This document shows positions 149 to 64,000 of a stretch of DNA of 64,000 nucleotides, in pieces. The number at the start of each line of letters is the position of its first letter. Positions within the stretch are counted from its first letter, which is position 1. The translations under genes and the position numbers were made by a program. Under the pieces are notes generated by a model. The model was not told the origin of the DNA, did not search any database, and saw only the letters and a program-made list of their open reading frames with translations. The stretch comes from Thermaurantimonas aggregans (GTDB lineage Bacteria > Bacteroidota > Bacteroidia > Flavobacteriales > Schleiferiaceae), in assembly GCF_003851885.1 (NCBI RefSeq), contig NZ_BHZE01000006.1, positions 1 through 64,000 of the forward strand, read 5' to 3'.

Positions 149-2656
149 CTATTTCTTTTTTCTTCTTTTTCTATTTTTAGGTATCATATCCTCTCCATCC
201 TCCTCATCAGTGTAGCCATAACCATAACCGTAACCATAGCCATAGCCATAGCCATAGCCATAACCATAGCCATAACCATAGCCATAACCATAACCGTAAC
301 CGTATCCATAGCCATAACCAGAATTTTCTGGAGAGACGTCGTTGAGTACCAAAGCTACGTTAGTCAATGAACCCGTACTCGCTCTTTCACGAATTAGAAA
401 TAAAACCTCCTTTGGAGTATATCCTTGTCTGGTCACATAAAGATTTAAATCAGCATATTTAGCAATCTCAAAAGCATCACTTACCAAAAGAATTGGTGGC
501 GTATCGATTATAATGTAATCATACTTCTTTTTAAGCTCAGTGACTAATTTTTTAAATTCTTCTCTTATAATTAATTCTGAAGGATTAGGAGGAATCGTTC
601 CAGCAGAAATTATATCCAAATTATCATATTTTGTTGACTGAATAATTTCATTTATTTCGCTGGCGCCAGCTAAATAAGTACTCAACCCTGGTTCATTCGA
701 AAGTCCAAAATCCATGAAAATTTTCGGCTTTCTGAGGTCAGCACCTATAATAATTGTTTTCTTGCCGCCCATCGCAAGAACACTTCCAAAATTAATGGAA
801 ACATAGGTTTTACCCTCACCAGGAATGAAAGAAGTTACCGAAATAACTTGAATAGGAGTGTCTTTTGTGGGTTTAAAAAATTCCAGATTTGCCCTGATAC
901 CTCTGAAGTTTTCAGATACTACAGATTTTGGGTAGTTTAAAACTGTTAGATTACTGTCTTTTTTGTTATGACCAATTAATCCAATTAATGGCACTTGTGT
1001 AATTTTCTCTAAATCTTGAGGACTTCTAACTTTTGAATCAAAATAGGTTATCAAAAAAAGATAACCAATTGGTATAATTCCTCCCAATAATGAACCAATG
1101 AGAAAATTTTGACCATACTTAGGAGAAAGAGGTGTATTATTCACCGACGCATCTTCCACGATTTGAACATCCGTTTGTGTACTTGCAGCCGTTATTCCAA
1201 TTTCAGCTTTCTTTTGAAGCAAGAAAGTAAAAAGTGTTTGATTTATTTCGAATTTTCTCTTGATTCGGAGCAAATCCTGTTCAGTTTTAGGAACTTTACT
1301 AAGTTGTGATTCTAATAATTTTTGTCTTCTCTGCAAACTTACTAAATCCATATTTAGTAAGTTTTTTATGTTTACTACATTTTCTTTTATTGCCTCTTGA
1401 GTCGAGTGAATTTGTTGAAGAATTTCTTTAAGATATGGATTATCCACTTTTAAATTACCAAGTCGAGCTTTTTGGTTAATTAAATCATTTAATTTTTGAA
1501 CTAAATTTAAAATTACAGGGTCACTTATTCCACTTACAGCAGGTCGGGCTACTTCGTTCTCTGGATCTTTATTTTGAAGTTGTTTTTCCAGGTACGAAAA
1601 ATAATCCAATTTTAATTTAATCTGTGCTATTTCTTTATCTACTTCTGAAAGTCTATTGAACAATTCAGTTGCTTCAGAAGAAATATCTATTATCAGATTA
1701 GATGATCTGAAATTTTGTAAAATATTTTCAGTAAAAACCAAACTGTCTTCTATTCCTGTAAGCTGTTCATTGATAAATTTTAATGTGGACAAACTAGCTG
1801 CTTTTTTAAGTTCCAAGCCAAACTCGATGTAGGCTCTCATATATGCATTTATGTAATCTTTAATCTTTTCTTTTACAGTACCTTGTAATGTAATACTTAT
1901 ACCTGACGAACTTTTAGCAGCTGGTTCAACTTTGATATCTTTTGCATATTGATTTGCAAGTGCTTTTATGTTATTAAACTGTATTATAAATGATCGGCCA
2001 GCAAGGGATTTGTCTTTTTTACTCAATTTAAACTTATAACAATTTGAAATTATCCACTCATCAAATTTGTATACTTCCTCAGTTATATCATAATCACAAG
2101 GGAAAATCGAATCCGTTGAATATTGTACAACTCGAACTTTAGCATCTTTATCTAATTTTGTTAATTTAAAGGAATTTTCATCTATAACATTTATGTTTAA
2201 TGATGTGAGGGGTTGAACGTGATTTTTATCAAATTCTAAAATAAAAGGCATGGAGGAGCCGTAATGCTCCACCTTTCTAAATCTACCCTCTTCAATTACC
2301 GTATAGTAAAAATTCAGACTTTTTAATGTTTTTTCTGCAAGTTTTGAACTTTGTAGAATCAATACTTCATTTTCAAACTTTAATCTGGGATTGTAATATC
2401 CCATGGACATAAGTAACATGTCCATGTTTGGACCTGTCTTCTCTCCTTCCTGAAGTAGAATTAAACTCTTACCTTGATAAACAGGAACTTTATATCTATT
2501 AACTATAAAAGCTGATAATAAACCTATAGCAATTCCCCCAATTACTATTGGCCAATAAGACAATATTTTGTAGAAAAAAGCTTTAAAATCAAACGACTCA
2601 GAATCTTGAAATGGATTTTGATTTAATATCGTATTTTTTTGAGTAGTGTAATTCAT
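149..2656 (-). CDS. Wzc-like polysaccharide co-polymerase / BY-kinase with Gly-Tyr repeat tail
   Basis: Inner-membrane tyrosine autokinase that controls polysaccharide chain length and export together with the Wza-like lipoprotein just upstream. An N-terminal Wzz-type membrane segment lies near residues 31-55, a long periplasmic coiled-coil region follows, and a second membrane segment lies near 515-538. The cytoplasmic kinase has Walker A (PGEGKT, about residue 613), Walker A' (ADLRKP, about 639) and Walker B (IIIDTPP, about 718). The length of 835 residues is normal for Bacteroidota. The tail is unusual: 18 consecutive Gly-Tyr pairs followed by an acidic stretch and a very basic end (NRKRRKKK). 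BY-kinases normally carry a loose cluster of C-terminal tyrosines that are autophosphorylated; here the cluster is a perfect dipeptide repeat. It is the last gene before the terminator. Confidence 0.95.
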   Translation of the reverse strand: MNYTTQKNTILNQNPFQDSESFDFKAFFYKILSYWPIVIGGIAIGLLSAFIVNRYKVPVYQGKSLILLQEGEKTGPNMDMLLMSMGYYNPRLKFENEVLILQSSKLAEKTLKSLNFYYTVIEEGRFRKVEHYGSSMPFILEFDKNHVQPLTSLNINVIDENSFKLTKLDKDAKVRVVQYSTDSIFPCDYDITEEVYKFDEWIISNCYKFKLSKKDKSLAGRSFIIQFNNIKALANQYAKDIKVEPAAKSSSGISITLQGTVKEKIKDYINAYMRAYIEFGLELKKAASLSTLKFINEQLTGIEDSLVFTENILQNFRSSNLIIDISSEATELFNRLSEVDKEIAQIKLKLDYFSYLEKQLQNKDPENEVARPAVSGISDPVILNLVQKLNDLINQKARLGNLKVDNPYLKEILQQIHSTQEAIKENVVNIKNLLNMDLVSLQRRQKLLESQLSKVPKTEQDLLRIKRKFEINQTLFTFLLQKKAEIGITAASTQTDVQIVEDASVNNTPLSPKYGQNFLIGSLLGGIIPIGYLFLITYFDSKVRSPQDLEKITQVPLIGLIGHNKKDSNLTVLNYPKSVVSENFRGIRANLEFFKPTKDTPIQVISVTSFIPGEGKTYVSINFGSVLAMGGKKTIIIGADLRKPKIFMDFGLSNEPGLSTYLAGASEINEIIQSTKYDNLDIISAGTIPPNPSELIIREEFKKLVTELKKKYDYIIIDTPPILLVSDAFEIAKYADLNLYVTRQGYTPKEVLFLIRERASTGSLTNVALVLNDVSPENSGYGYGYGYGYGYGYGYGYGYGYGYGYGYGYGYGYGYTDEEDGEDMIPKNRKRRKKK
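212..319 (-). repeat. Hexanucleotide tandem repeat encoding 18 Gly-Tyr units
   Basis: Eighteen in-frame copies of a 6-bp unit, GG(T/C/A)TA(T/C) on the coding strand, make up codons for (Gly-Tyr)x18 near the kinase C-terminus. Unit sequences differ only at third positions. Gain or loss of a unit keeps the frame, so repeat number could vary between strains without breaking the gene and would change the number of phosphorylatable tyrosines. Confidence 0.95.
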
Positions 2657-2672: not shown

Positions 2673-3491
2673 TTAATTATTCAAACTTCTTGTTACAATA
2701 ATTAGCGTTAAAAGTGTACTGACAACGCTCAAAACACCAGTAAATGTTTGAAAACCGGTTGTACCAATTCCCCAGCTTTTAGCAGGTAGAGGTTTTACGT
2801 TTATTATATCGTTTGGTTCCAGAAAAATATCAGCACTTGCTAACACTTTTCTATCTGTAAGATCCAGCGTTTTGAAAACATATCCATTTGCTGTCATTCG
2901 TATTATTTCTACCTCTTTTCGATTGCCTACAAAATCAATATCTCCTGCCTCTACTAAAGCATCAATAATTGTCACATAATTGCGCATAAAAACATAACGT
3001 CCGGGCTTCCGAACATCACCAATTACTTTAACATTTATGCCTGGAAAACTTACTTTTGCTTTTACTGTTCCAGGTTCGAAAAATTTATGTAATTCTTTTT
3101 CAATTATTTCTTGGGCTTCCATCAGGTTTTTTCCTGCTAGTTTAACAGTCCCGATAATCGGTAATTTAACTTCGCCATCTAAATCAATTGTAAATCCGTT
3201 TAAATAAAACAAAGGATCTAATCCATTACCAATACCTCCCATCATACCAAAATTCATCATGTTGGATGAGGCCATATTGAACAGTTCATTAACTTCTTTA
3301 TTCGTAGAGATTACTTCTACTTTGATCATATCGCCTATTTGAAGTCGATATTTTATCATTAGTCTTTGCTGAAATTCTGCAGAATCAACAGCAATTGAAA
3401 CTCCTGAATCTCGGAAATAGGTAAGCTGCTTTCTCGTTACGCAAGACGACAAAATCACTATCAATAAAAGAATAAATGAAACTCGATTCAT
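2673..3491 (-). CDS. Wza-like polysaccharide export lipoprotein
   Basis: Outer-membrane polysaccharide export protein of 272 residues. A lipoprotein signal peptide is visible (hydrophobic stretch, then LSSC with the lipidated Cys at residue 17). It is followed by a Poly_export domain (about residues 45-140) and a SLBB-like domain (about 150-230; 'VKVIGDVRKPGRYVF'). The C-terminus ends in a hydrophobic segment (about 245-267) like the membrane helix of other Bacteroidota homologues. It lies 16 bases upstream of the BY-kinase gene, the usual partner pair. A -7 promoter box lies 18 bases upstream of the ATG, so this pair may also be transcribed separately. Confidence 0.93.
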   Translation of the reverse strand: MNRVSFILLLIVILSSCVTRKQLTYFRDSGVSIAVDSAEFQQRLMIKYRLQIGDMIKVEVISTNKEVNELFNMASSNMMNFGMMGGIGNGLDPLFYLNGFTIDLDGEVKLPIIGTVKLAGKNLMEAQEIIEKELHKFFEPGTVKAKVSFPGINVKVIGDVRKPGRYVFMRNYVTIIDALVEAGDIDFVGNRKEVEIIRMTANGYVFKTLDLTDRKVLASADIFLEPNDIINVKPLPAKSWGIGTTGFQTFTGVLSVVSTLLTLIIVTRSLNN

Positions 3492-16543: not shown

Positions 16544-17854
16544 TTATTTTCTAGAATGTAAACCAATAAAAATAGCAGAAAATAAAATAAATGTAATATT
16601 AATAAAAACAAAATTGAAAAGTAAGGAAGATAAATATATTTTACTGATATTTAACGGTAGATTTTTAAATGATAATTTAATAATGTTATAAATAAATAAA
16701 AAATACAATGTAAGACCGATTAAACCAGATCGAGCTGTAATGTTTATTGGAAATACATTTGGTACTGAATCCACCCTACCCCAAACGTGAAAAATAGTAT
16801 TAGAAGGAATATATTTGCTCATAGGTAAGCTAATCAAATTTGGACCAGTTCCTGTAACTAAATAAATTGGATTATTCCATAAATAGATAAGTGCTAATCT
16901 ATCAAAAATATCAAACCTTTTAAACAATTTAGGTTCATTTTTAATCCAATCCTCATCTAAAGCAATAAGCGCTTTAGTAATTTTACGGTGTGTGCCTGGA
17001 TGCAATAAATTATTTTCTAATAGAATAAAATAAGATGTGATCAATAAAAAAGCAATTAGAATAAAACTTAAAATACTTTTAAAATTAAATTTTAAAAAAA
17101 TCAAAACATTTAACAGTAAGAATAATATGTAAGATGAAGCAGAGGAACTTAGTAAAACACCCAAAATACATGTAAAAATAGAAAATAAATAAAATTTAGT
17201 ATATTTTTTAAATTGAATACAAAAAAGTAAAATTATTGAATATGCAAAAGCACTTGAACGACCTAAAGCTTTAGGCTCTCCATTTAAACCTAAAAATCTA
17301 TTTTTTTCAAAGTATTCTAAGTCAAATAAAGTGGCTTTTATTTGATATGATATAAAATAATCAAACAAACCTATCCAAAAAGATAAAATGGCTGAAATAG
17401 CAAATGCTTTTATTATAAATTCTAAAGTAATTCTTCTATATTTTATTGAAAATATTACATAAAAAATAACAATAAATTCAAGAAATATTCGAATTATTTG
17501 AACAATAGTCCTTCCATGTGCTTTTTGGCTCCATGATCTATCTCCACTCATGTCTTCCCAAGGAAAAATAAATCCAAAAATTACCCCTAATATTATCAAA
17601 TAAATAAATTCATATTTAATATATCGAATTAAATTTTCTATAATTATATTTTTTTTAAAAAGATGATTTATTACGAAGGGTATATTTATAATAGCTATAA
17701 AATAAATTAAAAGTATATTAACATTAAATAATTTAAAATATAAGGTATCAGAAACTATGGAAAAAATGGATAGAAAGAAATTTAATTTATGTTTATTTAA
17801 AAAATGAAGAATTGAAATTAATACTATGAAAAAAATTGAGAGTATTAAACCCAC
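16544..17854 (-). CDS. O-antigen/polysaccharide polymerase (Wzy-like)
   Basis: Integral membrane protein of 436 residues with about ten or more hydrophobic segments and a large periplasmic-type loop in the C-terminal third (LVTGTGPNLISLP..ARSGLIG), the general layout of Wzy polymerases and the O-antigen ligase superfamily. Its place between glycosyltransferases and the flippase gene supports Wzy. The start is GTG at 17854. Wzy proteins share little sequence, so the call rests on topology and context. Confidence 0.78.
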   Translation of the reverse strand: MGLILSIFFIVLISILHFLNKHKLNFFLSIFSIVSDTLYFKLFNVNILLIYFIAIINIPFVINHLFKKNIIIENLIRYIKYEFIYLIILGVIFGFIFPWEDMSGDRSWSQKAHGRTIVQIIRIFLEFIVIFYVIFSIKYRRITLEFIIKAFAISAILSFWIGLFDYFISYQIKATLFDLEYFEKNRFLGLNGEPKALGRSSAFAYSIILLFCIQFKKYTKFYLFSIFTCILGVLLSSSASSYILFLLLNVLIFLKFNFKSILSFILIAFLLITSYFILLENNLLHPGTHRKITKALIALDEDWIKNEPKLFKRFDIFDRLALIYLWNNPIYLVTGTGPNLISLPMSKYIPSNTIFHVWGRVDSVPNVFPINITARSGLIGLTLYFLFIYNIIKLSFKNLPLNISKIYLSSLLFNFVFINITFILFSAIFIGLHSRK

Positions 17855-18951: not shown

Positions 18952-20397
18952 TTATTGGGATACTTTAAATATATTTATAAATTTAGATACTGAAACTGCA
19001 ATTGAGGCAATTAAGGGGATTAATGCTAAATTGAAGTTATGAAATTTAAAATTTATCATAATTGCAGTTGAACAACATAATATAAATAATAAAAATGCAA
19101 TTAAATAAATACTTTTATCAATGTTGATTTTAATATGTTTTTCAATTAAATAATTAACCTGTATTAAATAAAACAAATTTGATACTAAATAAGATATACC
19201 AAGACCTAACAGACTTAAATATTTAAAACCTATAATGCTTAAAAAAAGAAAATATAAATTGAATATTAATTCATTAAAAAAAAATAATCTATTGGTATTT
19301 TTTACTAAGAATAAAAAAGAAAGAATATAACTAATGGATTTAATAAACATTCCTAATAAAATCAAAATCATCATCGAACTAATAGATAGAAATTCATTAG
19401 AGTACAAAAGTGAAATTATATCATGATGAAAAAAAATAAAAATAGTAATCATAGGTGTCAAAATAAACAACACTATTTTTGTATAATTATGTATCAGATT
19501 TTTTACTTTAGTTACTTCATTAATACAAGAGCTTAGTTTTGGATAATAATCATTTAACATTGAAGATAATATTAAATTAATATAAGTTAATATAATTACA
19601 AAACCAGCTGTATATAAACCAACAATTTCTTCGCCAGAGGTATGATTGATAAATATTCGCAATAAATAAGATACTAATGTTGATAGAGCATTTGTAATAC
19701 TGATGATAAAACCAAGCTTGAGAATAATTTTACTTTTTTCGATAAATTCACCAAGGGATACTTGTACTTTTTTTAAATTTAAATTTAATATAAAATACTT
19801 TGAAATAAAATACGGAATTAAACTGTAGATAATTATTGACCAAATTATGCCATTTTTCTTAAAGTAATAATAAATTGGTGCAGATAAAAGAAATGAAACA
19901 GCAGCACTAATTACATTTGACTGAATCAATTTATTGACATTATTAATTCCACGAAGTAATGATTCATTTTGTATTGTTAATTGATAAAAAAGCAATGTAA
20001 TAGACAATAATAAAAAATCAGTAATATAGTCATAACTACCAAAAGTAACTTTACTTAAATAAGACGATAATAAAATACTTAAAATAAAACCAAAAAAACC
20101 TGTGAGAAGAATCAACCTTTTAAATATGGTATATGTTTTAAGGAAATCTTCATTACTACTTAAATATGCATTGTTTATTTCTTTAACGGAACTTACAGCC
20201 AAACCAAAATTTGTTACGGAAGTTAGAAAACTCAATGCCGATGTATATAAACCATGTAAACCTAAACCAACAGGACCTAACAAAACAGCTATAAGCTTAG
20301 ATCGTAATATATTAAATATTACGACAAATCCTTGTGAAATTCCAAGAAAAGTTATACCTTTAAAAATAGATTTATTAGAAAAATGGATACTTTTCAA
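18952..20397 (-). CDS. Lipid-linked repeat-unit flippase (Wzx-like, MOP superfamily)
   Basis: Polytopic membrane protein of 481 residues with about 12-14 hydrophobic helices. The N-terminus (SIFKGITFLGISQGFVVIFNILRSKLIAVLLGPVG, in two halves) is typical of the O-antigen translocase/PST family. It should flip undecaprenyl-PP-linked repeat units to the periplasm for the Wzy-like polymerase. The start appears to be TTG at 20397; no ATG lies upstream in frame. Codon use is extremely AT-rich, as for the adjoining wzy. Confidence 0.88.
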   Translation of the reverse strand: MKSIHFSNKSIFKGITFLGISQGFVVIFNILRSKLIAVLLGPVGLGLHGLYTSALSFLTSVTNFGLAVSSVKEINNAYLSSNEDFLKTYTIFKRLILLTGFFGFILSILLSSYLSKVTFGSYDYITDFLLLSITLLFYQLTIQNESLLRGINNVNKLIQSNVISAAVSFLLSAPIYYYFKKNGIIWSIIIYSLIPYFISKYFILNLNLKKVQVSLGEFIEKSKIILKLGFIISITNALSTLVSYLLRIFINHTSGEEIVGLYTAGFVIILTYINLILSSMLNDYYPKLSSCINEVTKVKNLIHNYTKIVLFILTPMITIFIFFHHDIISLLYSNEFLSISSMMILILLGMFIKSISYILSFLFLVKNTNRLFFFNELIFNLYFLFLSIIGFKYLSLLGLGISYLVSNLFYLIQVNYLIEKHIKINIDKSIYLIAFLLFILCCSTAIMINFKFHNFNLALIPLIASIAVSVSKFINIFKVSQ

Positions 20398-28696: not shown

Positions 28697-29865
28697 GGAA
28701 ATTGTTGCTTAATAATTTGTACTAATTTTTTCGTCTGTATTTCCAATGTAGTACTTTTTGCAAGTTCAAAGCCATTATATATAAGCTTTTTTCTTAGGCC
28801 TTTGTCGTTTATAATTCTTTTAATGGCTTCGACTAATGCTTCTACATTTTTCGGAGGTATGAGCAGTGCATGTGTTTCGTGCTCTAAATACTCGGGTATT
28901 CCTCCTACACTAGTGGCAATTACCGGCAAGCTATTTGCCATAGCTTCCCAGATGGTACGAGGAAAGCCCTCATGATAAGATGGTAAAACATAAATGTCGC
29001 ATGACCTGTACATAGCGTTAAGATCTGTTCCAACCTTTTTTCTTCCATGAAAAATTACTCTATCAGTAATTTTTAATTTTTCTGCTAACTCTCTCAACTT
29101 GTTCTCAACAGGTTTATTTACATCATCCTCCCAACCCGCTAGATGTAAATAAAAATCTTTTTCCTTAATTAAAATCAATTTGTTTAATGCTTCAAAAAGT
29201 TCTACCAGACCTTTATTATAAGCAAATCTTCCAGTGAATAAAATATTAGTTCGATTGTTTTGACAGGTATCTTCACGATAATACAAGTCAATTTCATTAA
29301 GTGTTGTGCTTTTTATGAGGTGTATTCTTTTCGCCACAGGCGTATATTTTTTCAACAAGGCCGGAGAATTGACTAAAACGTTTGTAAAAGGAATGCGTTT
29401 CTGAAAAAAGTAATTATTGACCTTTAAGTAGAAATAAATTAATTTATTTCTTAAACCTGACTTTAAGTAATGCTCTGTGCCTTCAAGATAGTCACCGACT
29501 ATCAAAAACCAAAGTTCGGGATGTTTCACATATTTGTGAAAATAGGCTGCGAGTGGGGTAGGCGATCTAATGATGATGGCATCGCATATTTCGGCTTGTC
29601 GAAGAGCAGTTTTCAAAATCTTTTTATGAAAAAATTCCCTATGCCAGGCAGGAGTTTTATAACCCAGATTGATGACCGTAATGTTTTTTGATATGAGCTC
29701 GTAATCACAAAACTGTTCATAATGCTTATCCGCCTGATGTAAAATTAAAACCAATGAATCGACCTCTTTTGCCAGAGCACTAATGAAAACACCCAAAAAA
29801 CCGGGTAGTTTTATTTGATTTTCCGTTATTACAGCTGGAATGTGATAATAAAAACCCAATTTCAT
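28693..29865 (-). CDS. Glycosyltransferase family 4
   Basis: GT-B glycosyltransferase of 390 residues. Donor-side motifs NILFTGRFAYNKGLVELFEAL (in two parts, about 210-230), VIFHGRKKVGTDLNAMYR and the E-x7-E motif (PSYHEGFPRTIWEAMANSLP, about 297-316) followed by VIATSVGGIPEYL are clear. It overlaps the ligase-like gene by 4 bases. Confidence 0.92.
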   Translation of the reverse strand: MKLGFYYHIPAVITENQIKLPGFLGVFISALAKEVDSLVLILHQADKHYEQFCDYELISKNITVINLGYKTPAWHREFFHKKILKTALRQAEICDAIIIRSPTPLAAYFHKYVKHPELWFLIVGDYLEGTEHYLKSGLRNKLIYFYLKVNNYFFQKRIPFTNVLVNSPALLKKYTPVAKRIHLIKSTTLNEIDLYYREDTCQNNRTNILFTGRFAYNKGLVELFEALNKLILIKEKDFYLHLAGWEDDVNKPVENKLRELAEKLKITDRVIFHGRKKVGTDLNAMYRSCDIYVLPSYHEGFPRTIWEAMANSLPVIATSVGGIPEYLEHETHALLIPPKNVEALVEAIKRIINDKGLRKKLIYNGFELAKSTTLEIQTKKLVQIIKQQFP

Positions 29866-31106
29866 TTTCTATACACTAAAGCTGAAGCCAGAGCAATCAA
29901 AAACCAAGTAAAAACGTTAACAATGGACATGATAAAGTAAAGATGAACAGCCATCATTACATGCCCATAAAATACAGGCTTTTGAACAACAGGTATTGAA
30001 TTGAAATTTCTGATCAAATGATAGATTGGAATAAGAAGAATAAGCACAAAAGGCAAGAACAATAGAAGCCCACCTTCGGCAAGCACTCCAATGTAGGAGT
30101 TGTGAGCGCTCTTTTGTTGTATATTTTTTCTTGTTACTACATACTTTGCCCCCTCAAATGATTCATCAAAAGCTATACTATAATTTGTGAAGTTATTAAG
30201 TCCAATGCCCGTTAAAGGATGTTTTTCAAATATAGCCAGTGCTTTTTTGACCATTGCCACCCTTACAAGGTAGGATCTATCCTCCGTGCGCACTTTTTCG
30301 GTTTCATAGATCATTTCATGGATGCGATCGCTCGATTGCAGGATGAAAGCTTCTACAGGAGGCGAGTAAAGCGCTGCAATAAAAACCGGTACTGCTATTG
30401 CTGCCACTAATAAACGCTTCCAATTTATGTAGTCAGCATATAAAACGGACATGCCTCCTAAGAAAACTAAAACCATCCCGGCTCGTCTACCTTCTTTTAG
30501 CAATATAAAAACCAACAGCATTAAAAAAGCCAAAGCCCATATACGGTTTTTTTGCTCTTTAAGGTAGTGAATAGCGATAGGAGTATAACTGATTAAGATA
30601 AAAGAAAAGTTATTGGGAGTTTGTCTGTTGAAAATGGGAATCGCCCTTAATGATTGTTGCAAAAATAGATAGTAAATAACTGTACAAACCACACCCCAGA
30701 ATACGGCTTTGTATATTACCTCCAGACGTAGTAGCCTGCGTTGTTGTATCAAAATAATAATCAACAGGCTCCAATATAGGTAATTGGGTAGGACGGACAA
30801 GGCACGGTTAAATGCATCGGAAGAGGCATCGGAGGGGATATTCGCAACGGACAAAATGGCACCTATTCCAAAAAGAGCGGCCAGCCTTTGCAAAGGATTG
30901 GTGAAGCCAATTAACGAAATACGGCTGTTTTGCACAATGAACCATACCATCGCCAAAAAAATCAACAGTGAGGCATTTTGGTTGAACAGCAGTAATGATG
31001 GAAAGGCCATCATAAAACTGTACCAAAACAACAGCTTTTCCCAGCGCTTTTGTTTCCTGGCAAGTTTCCAGGTTTGGATGCTATAGACGGATGCCGGAGC
31101 GTTCAA
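29862..31106 (-). CDS. O-antigen ligase / polymerase-like membrane protein (WaaL/Wzy superfamily)
   Basis: Polytopic membrane protein of 414 residues with about ten helices and the Wzy_C/WaaL signature loop: HPLTGIGLNNFTNYS, then KSAHNSYIGVLAEGGLLLFL (about 325-345), whose His is conserved in ligases. With an ABC exporter nearby, ligation of finished polymer to lipid A core is one role; polymerisation is the alternative. The start is TTG at 31106, overlapping the upstream gene by 26 bases; the first ATG (codon 32) would remove part of the first helix. Confidence 0.82.
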   Translation of the reverse strand: MNAPASVYSIQTWKLARKQKRWEKLLFWYSFMMAFPSLLLFNQNASLLIFLAMVWFIVQNSRISLIGFTNPLQRLAALFGIGAILSVANIPSDASSDAFNRALSVLPNYLYWSLLIIILIQQRRLLRLEVIYKAVFWGVVCTVIYYLFLQQSLRAIPIFNRQTPNNFSFILISYTPIAIHYLKEQKNRIWALAFLMLLVFILLKEGRRAGMVLVFLGGMSVLYADYINWKRLLVAAIAVPVFIAALYSPPVEAFILQSSDRIHEMIYETEKVRTEDRSYLVRVAMVKKALAIFEKHPLTGIGLNNFTNYSIAFDESFEGAKYVVTRKNIQQKSAHNSYIGVLAEGGLLLFLPFVLILLIPIYHLIRNFNSIPVVQKPVFYGHVMMAVHLYFIMSIVNVFTWFLIALASALVYRK

Positions 31107-40855: not shown

Positions 40856-41935
40856 TTAATTATTTAAAACTCTTAAAATAATTCTACAAACAAAATCTAC
40901 CTCCTCAAATTTTAGTTGAGTATATAATGGAAGACATAATATTCTTTTACTTACATCATCACTGACTTTACATTCACTACCATTAAAGATGCTAAAAGAA
41001 CTAAGTGATGGATAAAAATACCTTCTTGTATAAACCCAGTTAAGCTCTAAGGCTTTAATGACTTTCAAAAGAGTATTCTCGTCTTTAAATATAATTGGAA
41101 AATACGCATAATTTGGTGATGAAAATTTATTAAATTGAGGAGTCTGCAAATCATTCTTTGAAAGCCATTTGAAGTATCTCTCTGTCAGGGCTTTTCGCTT
41201 TGCAAATATTTTCTCAATGTAATTCAAATTTATTAGCCCCATTGCTGCATGAAACTCGCTGTTTTTGCCATTGATGCCAATTTCAGCGAAATCATCCGGT
41301 CCATTGTGCCCAAAATTCCGCATAAATGCCATTTTTTTCAGCAGCTCCGGATCTTGTGTAAATACAGCTCCGCCTTCCACAGTATGAAACAGCTTAGTGG
41401 CATGAAAACTCGTGGTAGTTACATCGCCATAATTAAATACAGATTTTCCCTTATACTTAGTACCAAAACAATGAGCTGCATCGTAAATTACCTTTAGGTT
41501 GTGCTTTTTTGCAATGGTATCAATGGCATCAATATCACAAGGGTTACCATAAACGTGGGTAGCCAAAATACCGGTTGTTCGCTCAGTAATAGCCCCCTCG
41601 ATTTTGGTAGGATCAATATTTAAAGTATCAGGATCAATATCAACAAACACCGGTGTACAACCTTCCCAAATTAGGCTACTCACAGTTGCTACATAAGTAA
41701 AAGGTGTCGTAATAACTTCTCCTTTTAATCCCAGTGCTTTGATGGCAATTTGCAGGGCAATTGTACCATTAGTGAGATACAAAATATGTGGAACCCCGAG
41801 GTATTCTTTAAGCTTTAGCTCAAGTTCATTCACCAGCGGGCCATTATTGGTAAGCCAATTTCGCTCCCATACGCCTTCGAGGTATTTAAAATATTCCTCT
41901 TTAGGAGGTAAGAAAGGTTTAGTTACTGGGATCAT
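40856..41935 (-). CDS. DegT/DnrJ/EryC1/StrS-family sugar aminotransferase (VioA/FdtB-like)
   Basis: PLP-dependent aminotransferase of 359 residues. The cofactor lysine is in TTSFHATKLFHTVEGGA (about residue 180), with YDAAHCFGT upstream. The N-terminus IPVTKPFLPPKEEYFKYLEG resembles enzymes that aminate 4-keto-6-deoxy hexoses. Together with the acyltransferase, ACP, ligase and reductase downstream it could make an N-acylated amino sugar. No RmlA/RmlB-type genes for a dTDP-4-keto precursor are in the window. It overlaps wzt by 17 bases. Confidence 0.88.
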   Translation of the reverse strand: MIPVTKPFLPPKEEYFKYLEGVWERNWLTNNGPLVNELELKLKEYLGVPHILYLTNGTIALQIAIKALGLKGEVITTPFTYVATVSSLIWEGCTPVFVDIDPDTLNIDPTKIEGAITERTTGILATHVYGNPCDIDAIDTIAKKHNLKVIYDAAHCFGTKYKGKSVFNYGDVTTTSFHATKLFHTVEGGAVFTQDPELLKKMAFMRNFGHNGPDDFAEIGINGKNSEFHAAMGLINLNYIEKIFAKRKALTERYFKWLSKNDLQTPQFNKFSSPNYAYFPIIFKDENTLLKVIKALELNWVYTRRYFYPSLSSFSIFNGSECKVSDDVSKRILCLPLYTQLKFEEVDFVCRIILRVLNN

Positions 41936-43202
41936 AGTGCAATTTCCAATTAAGTTTTGGTTTGACGATGCCTTCTTTTTTGCCCATCCAGCCCCATGCT
42001 TCTTGGTTAGAGGGTACTAATTCAAAAGAAATCGGGTTATTGACGCCAAAAACGATTGTTCCACGATTACGTACCAGCAGCAGCTTGCTAATAGTAAAAG
42101 TACCATGGTGCATTAGAAATGGTGGAATATCACATACTGCTTTAATAATGCCGGCATTAAAGTATTGGGGCTCTATTTCCCTGCCAGTACTGCCTACAAA
42201 GACTAGGTTTCCATATTCATCCATCAAATGAAAGGTGATATCGAGATTAGAATCGTCATCGCCGGTGTAGAGAAATTCAAATTCCAACCGTAATCCATGA
42301 CCTTCTTCCAATGGCCACTTATTACCAGGTAGCGGCATTACTTCGGCTCTTAAAAACCGTGCTTCGTTGTTACCAGGGGCTTCTTGTATATCGTAGCGTA
42401 AGCATTTCTGTACATCAGAGTATTCTTTCAAATAAAAGTCAATAGCTTCATCTACCGAACCATAAAAGCTAAGTATCCCATGCTTCAAAACTAATCCACT
42501 CTGGCAGAGATTGCGCACCGCCATCATATTATGGCTCACAAACAATACCGTTCTACCCTGCGTCGCCACATCCTCCATCTTTCCCAAACACTTCTTCTGA
42601 AACTCTGCATCGCCTACTGCCAGAACTTCGTCGATCACCAAAATTTCAGGTTCTAAATGTGCAGCCACTGCAAAGCCCAGACGCACTTTCATCCCGGAGG
42701 AATAAAATTTTACAGGAGTGTCGATGAACTTTTCAATGCCTGCAAAGTCTATGATTTCATCAAGTTTTCGGTCTATTTCTTTTCTGGTCATACCCAGAAT
42801 GGTACCGTTCATGTAAATGTTCTCACGTCCGGTAAGCTCGGGGTGAAACCCTGTTCCTACTTCAAGCAAGGCGCCGATGCGGCCGCGAATGCGGATGTGA
42901 CCTGAGGTAGGCTCAGTGACGCGGGACAAAATTTTCAGCAATGTACTCTTTCCAGCGCCGTTGTGGCCAATAATGCCAAGTACCTCGCCTTCGTTTACGG
43001 TAAAATTGATGTCTCTCAACGCCCAATGTACAGTTGGGTCGTCTTGATCATTAAACTTCGTAAGTGACCTTAAATTTTTTAAATTCCGTACAGGTGCTGA
43101 AAGGATATCAGCAAGTTGTCCAAACAAGGTATCGTGTGATTGTTCCCTCTGCCCTACTCTGTAGGCTTTGGAGAGGTTTTCTACCCGGATAATTTCTTTC
43201 AT
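41919..43202 (-). CDS. wzt: ABC transporter ATPase for polysaccharide export, Wzt with C-terminal carbohydrate-binding domain
   Basis: Nucleotide-binding subunit of an ABC-2 polysaccharide exporter, 427 residues. Walker A GHNGAGKSTLL (about 79), the signature region YSSGMKVRLGFA (about 168) and Walker B EILVIDEVLAVGD (about 190-202) are present. From about residue 270 a separate beta-rich domain follows (FEFLYTGDDDSNLDITFHL, VCDIPPFLMHHGTFTISKL), which corresponds to the Wzt C-terminal module that recognises the capped non-reducing end of O-polysaccharides. It overlaps wzm by one base. Confidence 0.93.
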   Translation of the reverse strand: MKEIIRVENLSKAYRVGQREQSHDTLFGQLADILSAPVRNLKNLRSLTKFNDQDDPTVHWALRDINFTVNEGEVLGIIGHNGAGKSTLLKILSRVTEPTSGHIRIRGRIGALLEVGTGFHPELTGRENIYMNGTILGMTRKEIDRKLDEIIDFAGIEKFIDTPVKFYSSGMKVRLGFAVAAHLEPEILVIDEVLAVGDAEFQKKCLGKMEDVATQGRTVLFVSHNMMAVRNLCQSGLVLKHGILSFYGSVDEAIDFYLKEYSDVQKCLRYDIQEAPGNNEARFLRAEVMPLPGNKWPLEEGHGLRLEFEFLYTGDDDSNLDITFHLMDEYGNLVFVGSTGREIEPQYFNAGIIKAVCDIPPFLMHHGTFTISKLLLVRNRGTIVFGVNNPISFELVPSNQEAWGWMGKKEGIVKPKLNWKLHYDPSN

Positions 43203-44029
43203 CAGGCTACGTCGGCAAATTTGCGTTCAAACTTGTTGAAATAGGCAGTGCCTCCTACGAATACAGCCATTGATACCAAGGCACCTATGCCAAACTGCAT
43301 GTACGGAAAAGCTAACGTAGGGATAAAAGCTGCTCTAAATCCCTCAATAACCCCTACCATCGGATTGAGCGCGTAAAGCAACTGATACTGTTCGGGTATT
43401 ACCGATGATGGATACACAACCGGACAAGCATACATTAGTATCTGTACCACAAATGAAAGTGCGTGTTTTACGTCCCGGTATTGTACCGCGAGAGCAGATA
43501 AAAACGATCCGATGCCTAAGGAAAAGAGCAGCATAACCAGAACAACCACTGGTAGCCAGAGCACGTTAAGAGATGGAACTACCTGAAAATATAAGAGAAA
43601 TCCAATTAATACGGCTAGCCCTATGACAAAGTCAAGCAGTTTAGAAAAGGCAGCAGAAAGTGGAAGTATGATTCTGGGGAAGTACACCTTGGTAATCATG
43701 GAGGCGTTCTGAACCACACTATTACTGGCTTCAGTAAGGGTGTTTGAGAAATAATTCCAGATGACCATACCGGAGAAACTAAACAATATATAGGGCATGC
43801 CATCTGAGCTCACTTTTACAAGGTTCCCAAAAATGATGGTAAATACGACTGTAGTAAACAGAGGCTGAATGATGGCCCAGCTGACGCCCAGAACCGACTG
43901 TGCATACTTTGCTTTTATTCCTCTGATGACCATAAAGTAGAGCAGGTCTTTATAGCGTATTAATTCCCGAACTGATTCAGCAAACCAGTTTTTGCCGGGC
44001 TCGATGACGATTTCTTCTTTAAAATTCAT
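43202..44029 (-). CDS. wzm: ABC-2 type polysaccharide export permease, Wzm
   Basis: Integral membrane subunit of the exporter, 275 residues with six predicted helices. LGVSWAIIQPLFTTVVFTII (about 47-66) and PIVYP/CPVVYPSSVIPEQ (about 205) are typical of Wzm/KpsM/TagG-type permeases. It pairs with the adjoining Wzt to export completed polymer across the inner membrane. It overlaps the epimerase gene by 4 bases. Confidence 0.93.
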   Translation of the reverse strand: MNFKEEIVIEPGKNWFAESVRELIRYKDLLYFMVIRGIKAKYAQSVLGVSWAIIQPLFTTVVFTIIFGNLVKVSSDGMPYILFSFSGMVIWNYFSNTLTEASNSVVQNASMITKVYFPRIILPLSAAFSKLLDFVIGLAVLIGFLLYFQVVPSLNVLWLPVVVLVMLLFSLGIGSFLSALAVQYRDVKHALSFVVQILMYACPVVYPSSVIPEQYQLLYALNPMVGVIEGFRAAFIPTLAFPYMQFGIGALVSMAVFVGGTAYFNKFERKFADVA

Positions 44030-49343: not shown

Positions 49344-52300
49344 TCACATGTTCCTCCTGTATTGTCCGCCTACTTGAAAGAGTGCTTCGGTCATTTGGCC
49401 GAGGGAGCAGTATTTGCTGGCTTCCATGAGTACTTCGAAGACGTTTTTGTTCTGAATGGCGGCTTCTTGGATGGATCGCAGCATTTGTCGAGACTTCTCG
49501 GGGTTAAAGGCATGGAGCCTGCTTACGGTTTCAATTTGAGCTTGTTTTTCTTCTTCAGTAGCTCGAATTACCTCGGCTGGTATAATGGTAGGCGACCCCT
49601 TTGAACTCAAGAAGGTGTTTACTCCAATGATGGGAAGTTCGCCTGTATGCTTTAAAGTTTCGTAATAGAGGGATTCTTCCTGAATCTTCGAGCGCTGATA
49701 CATGGTCTCCATTGCACCGAGAACGCCACCGCGCTCGGTGATGCGGTCAAACTCCATCATCACGGCTTCTTCAACCAGGTCGGTCAATTCCTCAATGATG
49801 AAACTGCCCTGGAGGGGATTTTCGTTTTTGGCGAGTCCGAGCTCTTTGTTGATGATCAATTGAATAGCCACAGCACGACGTACTGATTCTTCTGTTGGAG
49901 TCGTAATTGCCTCATCGTAAGCGTTGGTATGCAGCGAGTTGCAATTGTCGTAGATGGCGTAGAGCGCTTGTAAGGTTGTACGAATGTCGTTGAAATCAAT
50001 TTCTTGAGCGTGGAGCGAACGACCGGAAGTCTGAATGTGATATTTGAGCATCTGAGCACGAGGATTCGCTCCGTACTTGTATTTCATTGCTTTAGCCCAA
50101 ATTCGACGAGCGGCACGACCAATTACGGCATATTCGGGATCAATGCCGTTAGAGAAGAAAAAGCTGAGGTTTGGACCGAAATCGTTAATGTCCATTCCAC
50201 GGCTGAGATAGTACTCTACGTAGGTAAATCCATTAGCCAACGTGAAAGCTAGCTGTGTAATCGGATTGGCACCAGCTTCGGCAATATGGTAACCCGAAAT
50301 GGATACTGAGTAAAAGTTTCTTACTTTGTGGTCGATAAAGTACTGCTGAACGTCGCCCATTAGGCGAAGGGCAAATTCTGTAGAGAAGATACACGTATTT
50401 TGGGCCTGGTCTTCTTTAAGAATGTCAGCCTGAACAGTTCCGCGTACGGTACTAAGGGTCTGCGCTTTGATACGCTCGTAGGTTTCGCGATCGAGGATTT
50501 GATCGCCGGTAACCCCAAGAAGAAGTAGGCCTAAGCCATCGTTGCCCTCGGGCAGAGGTGCATTGTAACGAGGTCTGGGCAGATTTCGGTCGTCGTAGAG
50601 TTCTTTCAGCTTGGCCTCCACCAAGTGCTCCAAACCGTTTTGGCGGATGTAAAGCTCACACTGCTGGTCGATGGCCGTATTCATAAAGAAAGCCAGAATC
50701 ATGGGTGCAGGCCCGTTAATGGTCATCGATACCGATGTGGTAGGATCAGCCAGGTTGAAGCCTGAGTACAGCTTTTTGGCATCGTCGAGGCAGCAAACCG
50801 AAACACCAGAGTTCCCGATTTTTCCGTAAATATCTGGACGGAGGTCTGGATTGCGTCCGTACAAGGTTACGGAGTCAAAGGCGGTAGAAAGACGGGCAGC
50901 AGGCATACCCAGGCTGAGGTAATGAAAGCGCTTATTCGTACGCTCCGGTGCTCCTTCGCCGGCAAACATACGGGTAGGGTCTTCGCCGGTGCGCTTAAAG
51001 GGGTAAATACCCGCCGTATAGGGGAATTCTCCCGGAAAATTTTCTTGCAACTGCCAGCGCAGCAAATCGCCCCAGGCGCGATAGCGCGGGGTAGCGATTT
51101 TCGGAATTTTCAGGTGTGATAGCGATTCCGTGTAGGTTTTTACACGTACTTCCTTATCGCGTACTTTGAAGATGTATTCCTCGTTGTGGTACTGCTGGGC
51201 TTTTTCATCAAATTTTTCGATCAATTGCCAGTTGTGCGGATCGAGGTCGAGTTTTACGTTTTCAAATTCTTCGCGCAACTTTTTGAAGAGTCGATCTTTA
51301 TCTTCAATATCAGTGGAGGAAAGGTGTTCAATGGTTTGATGAATGTTGTAAAGCTTTTGGGCGATGTCGGCTTGTTTTTTAACCCACTGATCGTATTTGC
51401 GGTTATTTTCAGTGATTTCAGAAAGGTAGCGCGTGCGATGTGGGGGAATGATATACACCTTTTCCGACATCTCATCGGTGGCGTGGAAGTTTGATCGCAG
51501 GTCAGCACCTGTTTTTTCCACGATTTTGTCCATTACTGCTTTGTAGAGTCGGTTCATTCCTGGGTCGTTGAACTGGCTTGCGATGGTGCCAAATACGGGC
51601 ATCTCATCGGCTGGTCGATCCCAGAGCTGATGGTTGCGCTGGTACTGCTTTTTGACATCGCGAAGAGCGTCGAGGGCGCCACGTTTGTCGAACTTGTTGA
51701 GGGCGATTAGGTCAGCAAAGTCGAGCATGTCGATCTTCTCGAGCTGAGTGGCAGCTCCGTATTCGGGCGTCATTACGTAGAGCGACACATCGGAGTAATC
51801 GAGTATTTCGGTGTCGCTTTGGCCAATGCCAGAAGTCTCAAGTATAATCAGATCGTAACCGGCAGCTTTCAGTACGGCAATGGCATCACCTACGTAACGG
51901 CTCAAAGCCAAATTGCTTTGGCGAGTTGCCAGTGATCGCATGTACACGCGCGGATTGTTGATGGCATTCATGCGAATGCGATCGCCGAGCAGAGCTCCAC
52001 CGGTTTTGCGTTTCGAAGGGTCTACAGAAATGATTCCAATGGTTTTATCGGGAAAGTCGAGCAAATAGCGACGCACCAATTCATCGACCAACGAGCTTTT
52101 ACCGGCACCGCCTGTACCGGTAATTCCGAGCACAGGTGTTTTTGATTTTTCTGCGATTTTTTTTACAGCCTCAAGCTCAGCACGACTTTCCTCCGGGAAG
52201 TTTTCAGCCGCTGAAATCAACCGAGCAATGGCGCCCCAATTTTCAGGAGCAGTTCCAAGCTTTTTGACTTGACCGTTGAGTGGATATCCCACAGGAAAGT

Positions 52301-52733
52301 CAGCCTTCATCACTACATCGTTGATCATGCCCTGCAGGCCCATTGCACGGCCATCGTCAGGGTGGTAAATGCGGGTGATGCCGTACTGATGAAGCTCTTC
52401 AATTTCGGTAGGCAGTATGGTACCTCCACCTCCTCCAAAGATTTTGATGTGTCCGGCGCCTTTCTGCTTTAGCAAGTCGTACATGTACTTAAAAAATTCC
52501 ATATGTCCCCCTTGATAGGAGGTGATGGCTATCGCCTGAGCATCCTCTTGTATGGCGCAGTTAACAATTTCTTCTACCGAACGGTCGTGTCCGAGGTGAA
52601 TTACCTCACAGCCGGTAGCTTGCATGATTCGGCGCATGATGTTGATGGCTGCATCGTGCCCATCGAAAAGAGAGGCAGCTGTGACAATGCGAACTTTGTT
52701 TTTTGGGATATATGGAGTGGTGGTCATTGACAT
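49344..52733 (-). CDS. icmF: Fused isobutyryl-CoA mutase (IcmF)
   Basis: Adenosylcobalamin-dependent acyl-CoA mutase with its G-protein chaperone in one chain, 1129 residues. The N-terminal B12-binding domain has DGHDAAI with the lower axial ligand His26, TSYQGG (about 72) and a GGGGG run (about 100). The MeaI-like GTPase follows with P-loop GTGGAGKSS (206-214) and [12 protein letters not shown] (about 335). The C-terminal mutase domain begins near residue 560 ([35 protein letters not shown]). The order B12-GTPase-mutase and the length identify IcmF rather than methylmalonyl-CoA mutase. It interconverts isobutyryl- and n-butyryl-CoA. It is divergent from oxyR. Confidence 0.95.
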
Positions 52734-62227: not shown

Positions 62228-64000
62228 CTATTGTTCATTAAATTGATATTTTTTTCTTATTGAAGGTTCTTCATTTTGAAAATCATTTGCACCAAGAAGT
62301 TTCCAAAGTGGTTCTAATGCTTTCTTACGATTGGAATAATATTCTCCGCCTCTAACTCTGAAAAACTGCCAGCCGCATCTTTCCAAAACTCTCTGTCTCA
62401 TTAAATCATTTGTGAACTGCTCTGCACCATGATATTTATCTCCGTCACATTCTATTGCTATTTTTTTTCCGTTTGATAAGAGTACAACTAAATCAATCCT
62501 GTATCTTCCCTTTGCAACTTCATATTGAGGAATCACTCTGTAATTATTTGCAACAATATCGTTATAAACATCAACTTCAAACCAACTTTCAAATGGTTCG
62601 GGTTGCGTTCCCAATGTTCTTTTAATGATTTTTTGCGGTGGGATTGGTTGCGGCTTGTAATTAAGGAAATAGTCAAGCAACTTGTAACGTAAATCATTTG
62701 TATTGCTCAAATCTTCTAATAAAACTGAATGGAACAGCCAAACTTGTTCTTTTGCTCTGCTGACCGCAACATTAAATCTTCTTTCATCTTCGGGTTTTAT
62801 CAATACTGCCCTGTTGTGTTTATTTGCGGTTACTAAACTTAAAAACATGATGTCTCTTTCATCACCTTGAAAACTTGCAGAATTTCCGCAAACTATGCCA
62901 CGATTCTTAAATTCAACTTCCCCGATTTTCTTAATAATCAAATTTTCAATTATGGTTGCTTGTTTGTTGCCTTGTAAAACAATAACTCCAAAAGATTTTC
63001 TTTTATAGTTATCATCCTTAATGAGTTCAGCAATTTTATTTGCAATTGCCTCTGCTTCAACTTTGTTTGTTATATTCTGATATGTTCCTTCAACATAGCC
63101 ACCCTGACAATACACTGCTTTAAGTGGTTCTAATCTGTTTTCAGAATATTGTTTCATTGGATAAAGACTTATTCCTTCTGGTTCATAAAAATGTTTATTG
63201 CAGAACTCAATTATTTCAGGCATACATCTGAAATGCTCACGTAATACTATCATTCCATTACAAAACCTTTTAGCATGATCAAAGAAGCTAAATTCTGTTC
63301 CGTAGTAATTTGCAAAAGGAATATTTTGTAAGTGCCTTTTAATATGCGGTGTCATCGTATTTGCATCCACACCCACATATTCGGGAGAAGTTTGTTTGTC
63401 ATCTCCAACAATGATTATATTCTTTGAAATATAAAGAAGGAATATAGCATCTGCACCAAGTTGACTCGCCTCATCAATAATTACATAGTCATACATTCCC
63501 TGCTCAGGATTAATTGTTTCAGCAACTTTGTAAAGTGGCATAATCCAACATGGAACAGAATCTTTGCACTTCTCCATTTGATGCTGTGCCTCCTTCCGAA
63601 ATTTTAACGCCCTTTTTCCTGTTCCTGTTTTTCCAATTTTCTTTATTGCTTGCACCCAAGCTTGTAAATGCTGGCGTAAAAGGAAGTTCTTGTTAAGCCT
63701 GTCTAATACACTTAACCAAGCTTTCTTTGAAGCGATTGTTGAAATTAATTTTTCTTCCTCCCTCTCAAGGTTTAATAACTCTACAGATAGAATTGATTCA
63801 TAATCTTCATCTAACAATTTTTTAATTTCAGCATGAGCATGTTTAAAATAAATGGCATTTTCAAGTTGTCCGATATTTGCAAAATCAAATGAGTTTTCTA
63901 AAATCTCTCTTACAAGAATCGGAAAATGTCTGAATAGGTTTTTTTGAAGATTCTTATAGCTCATGTATTTTTCTTTCTCTAAGTTTAATGTATCAATTTG
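62228..64000 (-). CDS. SF1 helicase with C-terminal VSR/DUF559-like nuclease domain, partial at window edge
   Basis: The frame is open to the window edge, so the N-terminus, including Walker A, lies outside. From the ATG at 63964 it shows Walker B IIDEASQLGADA (about 160), motif III IIVGDDKQTSPE, motif V-like SFQGDERDIMFLSL and motif VI RRFNVAVSRAKEQVWLF, typical of DnaB-unrelated SF1 (Dna2/UPF1-like, AAA_12) helicases. The last 120 residues form a restriction-like nuclease (YRIDLVVLLSNGKKIAIECDG, then QRVLERCGWQFFRVRGGEY), as in DUF559/VSR modules. Such proteins occur in defence islands. The frame ends at a TAG (62228-62230) and continues in frame beyond. Confidence 0.85.
   Translation of the reverse strand, partial: QIDTLNLEKEKYMSYKNLQKNLFRHFPILVREILENSFDFANIGQLENAIYFKHAHAEIKKLLDEDYESILSVELLNLEREEEKLISTIASKKAWLSVLDRLNKNFLLRQHLQAWVQAIKKIGKTGTGKRALKFRKEAQHQMEKCKDSVPCWIMPLYKVAETINPEQGMYDYVIIDEASQLGADAIFLLYISKNIIIVGDDKQTSPEYVGVDANTMTPHIKRHLQNIPFANYYGTEFSFFDHAKRFCNGMIVLREHFRCMPEIIEFCNKHFYEPEGISLYPMKQYSENRLEPLKAVYCQGGYVEGTYQNITNKVEAEAIANKIAELIKDDNYKRKSFGVIVLQGNKQATIIENLIIKKIGEVEFKNRGIVCGNSASFQGDERDIMFLSLVTANKHNRAVLIKPEDERRFNVAVSRAKEQVWLFHSVLLEDLSNTNDLRYKLLDYFLNYKPQPIPPQKIIKRTLGTQPEPFESWFEVDVYNDIVANNYRVIPQYEVAKGRYRIDLVVLLSNGKKIAIECDGDKYHGAEQFTNDLMRQRVLERCGWQFFRVRGGEYYSNRKKALEPLWKLLGANDFQNEEPSIRKKYQFNEQ

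Follow-up and report, generated by a model that had tools for sequence, protein, structure and literature searches.

An uninterrupted (Gly-Tyr)18 tail on a Wzc-type BY-kinase of Thermaurantimonas aggregans as a putative stretched YxY phosphorylation track

The gene at 149..2656 (minus strand) of the window, by which the whole analysed stretch of 64,000 nucleotides is meant, encodes an 835-aa Wzc-like PCP-2a polysaccharide co-polymerase/BY-kinase that carries one unbroken (Gly-Tyr)18 array at aa 780-815, placed by script at 212..319 on the minus strand. With a probability of about 0.6, we take this array to be the tail at which a Wzc-type BY-kinase phosphorylates itself, lengthened to a YxY track of perfect periodicity, in which the number of units, n, would set the number of steps before disassembly of the octamer. 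The array consists of 18 hexamer units GGN-TAY, the codons of which vary only as GGT (9), GGC (8), and GGA (1), with no GGG, for glycine, and as TAT (14) and TAC (4) for tyrosine, and hence all differences between units are synonymous. The original prediction of a perfect (Gly-Tyr)x18 at 212-319, with units differing at synonymous positions only, matches these coordinates and codons exactly, and Tandem Repeats Finder independently reported the top array of the window at this place (216-320, period 6, 17.5 copies, score 133). The window starts at base 1 of the contig, and with 211 bp between the contig end and the array, the latter does not coincide with the assembly break. The array can hardly be put down to chance, since homologues carry it as well. 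A short linker (320..343, minus strand) leads from the conserved Asn at which the kinase core ends to the array, the first Tyr of which lies at +9 from this Asn, as does Tyr 705 in E. coli Wzc. The array is followed by an acidic patch, TDEEDGED, and then by a basic end, NRKRRKKK (together 152..211, minus strand, aa 816-835).

The assignment of the protein is based on Pfam, NCBIfam, and PDB matches. A GNVR domain spans aa 457-535 (Pfam GNVR, 1.2e-12) and the kinase domain approximately aa 565-775, with a further Pfam match to AAA_31 (8.6e-13); the NCBIfam model eps_fam (TIGR01007) scores 157 bits against a cut-off of 108. The best PDB match by sequence is E. coli Wzc (PDB 7nhr, 1.1e-56), the nearest solved relatives being E. 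coli Wzc, S. aureus CapAB, Etk, BceF, and VpsO. An AlphaFold2 model of the kinase domain, built as a monomer from 25 sequences, has a mean pLDDT of 70.5, with most of the core at 80-95 and an unstructured tail of low confidence; searched with Foldseek, it returned Wzc 7nhr as the top PDB match (8.2e-20), along with CapA1B1 (CapAB), Etk, and BceF. The Walker A lysine, the Walker B aspartate, and the second Walker motif with its D564-type aspartate were all found, and the equivalents of Wzc Lys 540, Asp 564, Arg 566, and Asp 642 are all present and invariant among 99 homologues. The ExxRxxR oligomerisation motif reads ENFRGIR at aa 582, its alignment positions E31, R34, and R37 being invariant. 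By sequence and model, the protein is a Wzc-type fused PCP-2a/BY-kinase, with predicted tyrosine autokinase activity. Its C-terminal tyrosine cluster comprises 18 Tyr, all of them in (GY)18; the earlier view of the array as a BY-kinase C-terminal tyrosine cluster is supported.

Directly upstream of the kinase gene lies a gene for a Wza-like outer-membrane polysaccharide export protein (2673..3491, minus strand; Poly_export 4.3e-13). Further along follow a Wzx-type flippase (18952..20397, minus strand; Polysacc_synt_3 1.4e-13), a Wzy/ligase-type membrane protein as candidate polymerase (29862..31106, minus strand; Wzy_C 5.4e-18), a second, weak Wzy candidate (16544-17854; Wzy_C 4.3e-5), and glycosyltransferase genes, so that the setting is that of a Wzx/Wzy polysaccharide locus. 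Inside this glycan locus with its Wzx and Wzy-like genes, a Wzt/Wzm-type polysaccharide ABC transporter, ATPase and permease, is encoded at 41919-44029. Elsewhere in the window were recorded a 1129-aa IcmF-like fusion of B12-binding, MeaB, and methylmalonyl-CoA mutase parts (49344-52733) and a helicase-like AAA_12 protein with an MTES_1575 restriction-endonuclease domain, possibly serving in defence (62228-63964). A Wzb-like low-molecular-weight protein tyrosine phosphatase (LMW-PTP, PF01451, 2.3e-37) is located at 75340-75771 of the same contig, outside the window and ≈ 73 kb from the kinase; it is a candidate cognate phosphatase, another LMW-PTP being present on one other contig of the genome. 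The genome search gave no CpsB_CapC match for a phosphatase of the CpsB/CapC type. A second kinase of the genome has a short tail only (YGLGSQAKGYGYIKE), which argues against a genome-wide bias towards long arrays.

For E. coli Wzc it has been described that a tail tyrosine occupies the active site of the neighbouring protomer while the tyrosine two positions before it is held in a 'tyrosine pocket'; with each phosphorylation the next tyrosine toward the N-terminus moves in, so that the order runs from C to N, and the octamer disassembles once sufficient phosphates are present, after the fourth conserved phosphorylation (PMC8285477, PMC11986026). The YxY pattern was named a ratchet, and filling its one gap (N711Y) ordered the Wzc tail (PMC11986026). 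In (GY)18 each Tyr except the first has a Tyr at i-2, and glycine, which has no side chain, is the sole spacer, so that every register would be equivalent and up to 17 successive equivalent ratchet steps may be available, as against ≈ 4. The length of the array would then determine the number of phosphorylations, and of ATP, spent before the octamer disassembles, and the step count in turn the time over which each Wzc/Wzy/Wza assembly goes on polymerising; a long array would be expected to make the assembly last longer or to grade the signal more finely. By analogy with E. coli Wzc we infer that the array tyrosines are phosphorylated, that they dock in the window kinase in the manner of a ratchet, and that n affects assembly lifetime or polymer length. 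The main weakness of the ratchet reading is the partial match in sequence to the tyrosine pocket (A534-P536, P645-L647, E675, S679). P645-L647 are aligned identically in the window protein, and P536 is likewise a Pro there, being Gly or Ser in most homologues; E675 aligns to a Glu in one alignment and to a Val in another, and S679 has no match.

Within the same GTDB family, the window protein was matched in 63 of 88 genomes, the weakest matches being short and centred on the nucleotide-binding part only. Of the full-length family homologues listed (≈ 34-58% identical), nearly all carry a terminal (GY)n, n being about 5-18, and the 18 units of the window kinase are the longest GY array seen in the analysis. 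A perfect (GGNTAY)6 was found in 31 of the 88 family genomes, and all 30 arrays retrieved sit at the ends of BY-kinase-like open reading frames; a strict Walker-B motif is absent in 13 of these 30 frames, all 13 keep the Walker A and ExxRxxR motifs, and where coordinates were compared, the arrays lie at the 3' ends of kinase matches. In Flavobacterium (loci L041-L115) the homologues usually carry ≈ 1-8 GY units, often with an interruption by Thr, Ala, or Ser; since many of these kinases manage with 1-6 units, function does not depend on a long array. The nearest named loci are mostly those of Flavobacteriaceae, which points to the order Flavobacteriales. A contig deposited as Candidatus Nitrotoga (L073) carries a kinase of the Flavobacterium type, likely a binning error. 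One relative, G003, possesses two kinases, both with a long GY array (G003:C15:18839-18916 and G003:C13:72980-73069), which differ in their dominant hexamer, one being rich in GGATAT and the other mixed.

Across the phylum, a search of both strands detected (GGNTAY)8 in 20 of 296 genomes, some of the array-bearing kinases being very unlike each other, and all arrays but one reside at intact BY-kinase C-termini. The single exception (L166, G284:C111:141-194) is a (GGTTAT)x9 in a 33-aa orphan at a contig edge, beside a transposase-like C-terminus (FHGEWNYKIEPNLD), and is probably what was left of the array when a mobile element cut a kinase gene. This distribution bears on the view that such repeats act as low-complexity stickers, which would cluster or condense the kinase at the membrane without involving its catalytic activity. 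In composition the Tyr/Gly repeats do resemble known sequences of aromatic stickers and glycine spacers; however, apart from the one orphan remnant, arrays outside BY-kinase tails are absent in the 296 genomes, and the period of two is already accounted for by a more specific kind of docking, that of the YxY ratchet. We hold a generic sticker function to be very unlikely.

The tails share a conserved plan. Among 75 homologous tails, the tyrosine zone starts at +8 from the core-ending Asn in 62 and at +9 in five, an acidic patch follows the array in 64, and a basic end is present in 57; with the start fixed relative to the core Asn, it is mainly the length of the array that is free. In a set of 99 homology-selected tails, the nearest Tyr-Tyr distance is exactly 2 in 69% of cases, compared to 18% (sd 1%) after shuffling within each tail, and the spacer at this distance is glycine in 542 of 565 instances. 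Conservation by codon position was assessed in 47 arrays with 457 units, picked by their position between the outer GY units so that interruptions were allowed. Departures from the array consensus amount to 0.7% at positions 1 and 2 of the Gly codon and to 2.0% and 1.5% at those of the Tyr codon, as against 47% (Gly) and 35% (Tyr) of units at the third positions. As third positions vary widely while the others depart by 0.7-2.0%, the GY pattern is, as judged from the codons, under strong selection at the level of the protein, and the arrays are old enough to have been scrambled synonymously, yet have kept exact alternation.

These figures also bear on two further explanations. According to the first, the tail would act as a buffer of phosphosites without any ratchet, extra tyrosines raising the concentration of substrate nearby and the total amount of charge that the tail can take up; a Y-rich tail of any kind with the same number of Tyr would then serve, and the period of two would reflect slippage of one hexamer rather than register. 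It gains from the observation that in E. coli Wzc it matters how extensively the tail is phosphorylated, not at which sites (PMC11986026), and from hexamer expansion evident in several arrays. We nevertheless consider it unlikely, as arrays that are old by their DNA, with heavy synonymous scrambling, keep exact alternation, and as the spacing of 2 prevails over the whole set of homology-selected tails, which includes many short, interrupted ones. The second explanation places selection on DNA or RNA, for instance on a structure that GGNTAY repeats adopt in the mRNA, and treats the peptide as a by-product. The Gly codons of the arrays are indeed unlike those of the gene bodies, GGA accounting for 13% compared to 37% (chi-square p 4e-56, from non-independent counts). 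But although both strands were searched, the arrays occur in the GY frame at kinase C-termini, and codon third positions vary freely with no change in the residues encoded; this explanation we regard as scarcely credible. In many arrays of the set formed by the window and L002-L145, the Gly codons shift from GGA toward GGC and GGT, which make up 80% in arrays; a founder hexamer, translation, or RNA effects are possible causes.

With regard to the way in which repeat number changes, several arrays contain runs of a single hexamer: GGTTAT x11 in L018 and x9 in G284, GGCTAT x9 in G189, and GGGTAT x9 in G300; the array of L140 is also a run of one hexamer, and G131 is rich in GGATAT. That the hexamer differs between lineages is a sign of separate expansions. 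In 28 arrays of at least 8 units, the identity between hexamers at lag 2 was 0.385 as compared to 0.264 in shuffled arrays, a value reached by none of 500 shuffles, and the identity of neighbouring hexamers (lag 1) in the same arrays showed no excess over the shuffles; this pattern suggests duplication in steps of 12 bp. Whole-unit differences were observed at ≈ 98-100% kinase-domain identity (L025 with n = 12 and L026 with n = 11; L059 with n = 6 and L082 with n = 5), the flanks being nearly unchanged in both pairs, and for the Flavobacterium gene body the match length is 2283 bp in nearly all loci.

A contingency-style dial, in which a hypermutable hexamer tract would let n shift within a population and capsule or exopolysaccharide vary from cell to cell, was the original prediction and would be compatible with the ratchet. 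The whole-unit changes between nearly identical kinases and the single-hexamer runs (L018, L140, G189, and G300) speak for such a dial. Against it, 33 of 49 pairs with 94-100% kinase identity do not differ in n, the synonymous divergence of the array resembles that of the gene body (mean identity 0.55 vs 0.58 over 153 close pairs, which are non-independent), and the window array mixes several hexamers, which should dampen slippage. We consequently judge it distinctly unlikely. Very fast turnover of the arrays is not supported overall, given that arrays and gene bodies diverge synonymously at similar rates; for the 18 closest pairs the synonymous identity is 0.61 for the array and 0.77 for the body, which is a hint only. 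On this sequence evidence, the arrays appear to be stable for long periods, with unit change real but slow. The comparison of repeat numbers was made between species, with one genome per species, and on this scale the predicted gain or loss of units in frame has occurred in evolution, by whole hexamers, n differing between species; the idea of a graded tuning dial is partly supported in this slow evolutionary form, rather than as a fast dial.

Returning to the stretched YxY track, one may go further and tentatively propose a timer coded in length, a possibility to which we give rather less than even odds: BY-kinases of the phylum would have repeatedly evolved GY arrays, n would set how many phosphorylation steps, all in one direction, are passed through before the export octamer comes apart, and polymer output or chain length would be written in a hexanucleotide number that evolves by slippage. 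Kinases with a nearly identical core and tails that differ almost solely in the number of YxY steps form a natural length series, which bears on how the cycling of Wzc phosphorylation governs polymerisation and chain length and can be used to test step number against octamer lifetime and glycan output. Furthermore, selection on the protein for an exact period of two residues provides an independent evolutionary argument for the ratchet that was proposed from the E. coli structures. In the part of the open-access literature covered, no description of such a GY array in a kinase was found, tandem repeats and Wzc together giving nothing relevant. The kinase family is known, and streptococcal kinases have repeat tails; it is the phylum-wide GY pattern, together with its agreement with a mechanism put forward only recently, that merits a direct test.

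Among known systems, the window kinase resembles Wzc from E. coli K30 and K-12 (PDB 7nhr, 9exo, 3la6) in architecture, kinase fold, catalytic residues, distance to the start of the tail, and YxY spacing. In E. coli Wzc, however, ≈ 5 tail tyrosines are phosphorylated and the YxY pattern is broken by Asn 711, whereas the window kinase has 18 uninterrupted GY units, the acidic patch, and the basic end. A tandem-repeat tyrosine tail on a BY-kinase is also known from CpsD (Wze) of Streptococcus pneumoniae, a PCP-2b system with a [YGX]n tail. There, a three-residue repeat in about four copies is located on a separate cytoplasmic kinase, in contrast to the two-residue repeat in 18 copies on a fused membrane kinase described here. 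In VpsO from Vibrio cholerae, phosphorylation of the tail controls oligomerisation and polysaccharide output (PMC7485978); its six tail tyrosines are irregularly spaced, whereas those of the window kinase are strictly periodic. The Wzc-like kinases of Flavobacterium share with the window kinase the order of GY array, acidic patch, and basic end, and differ from it by their short, often interrupted arrays.
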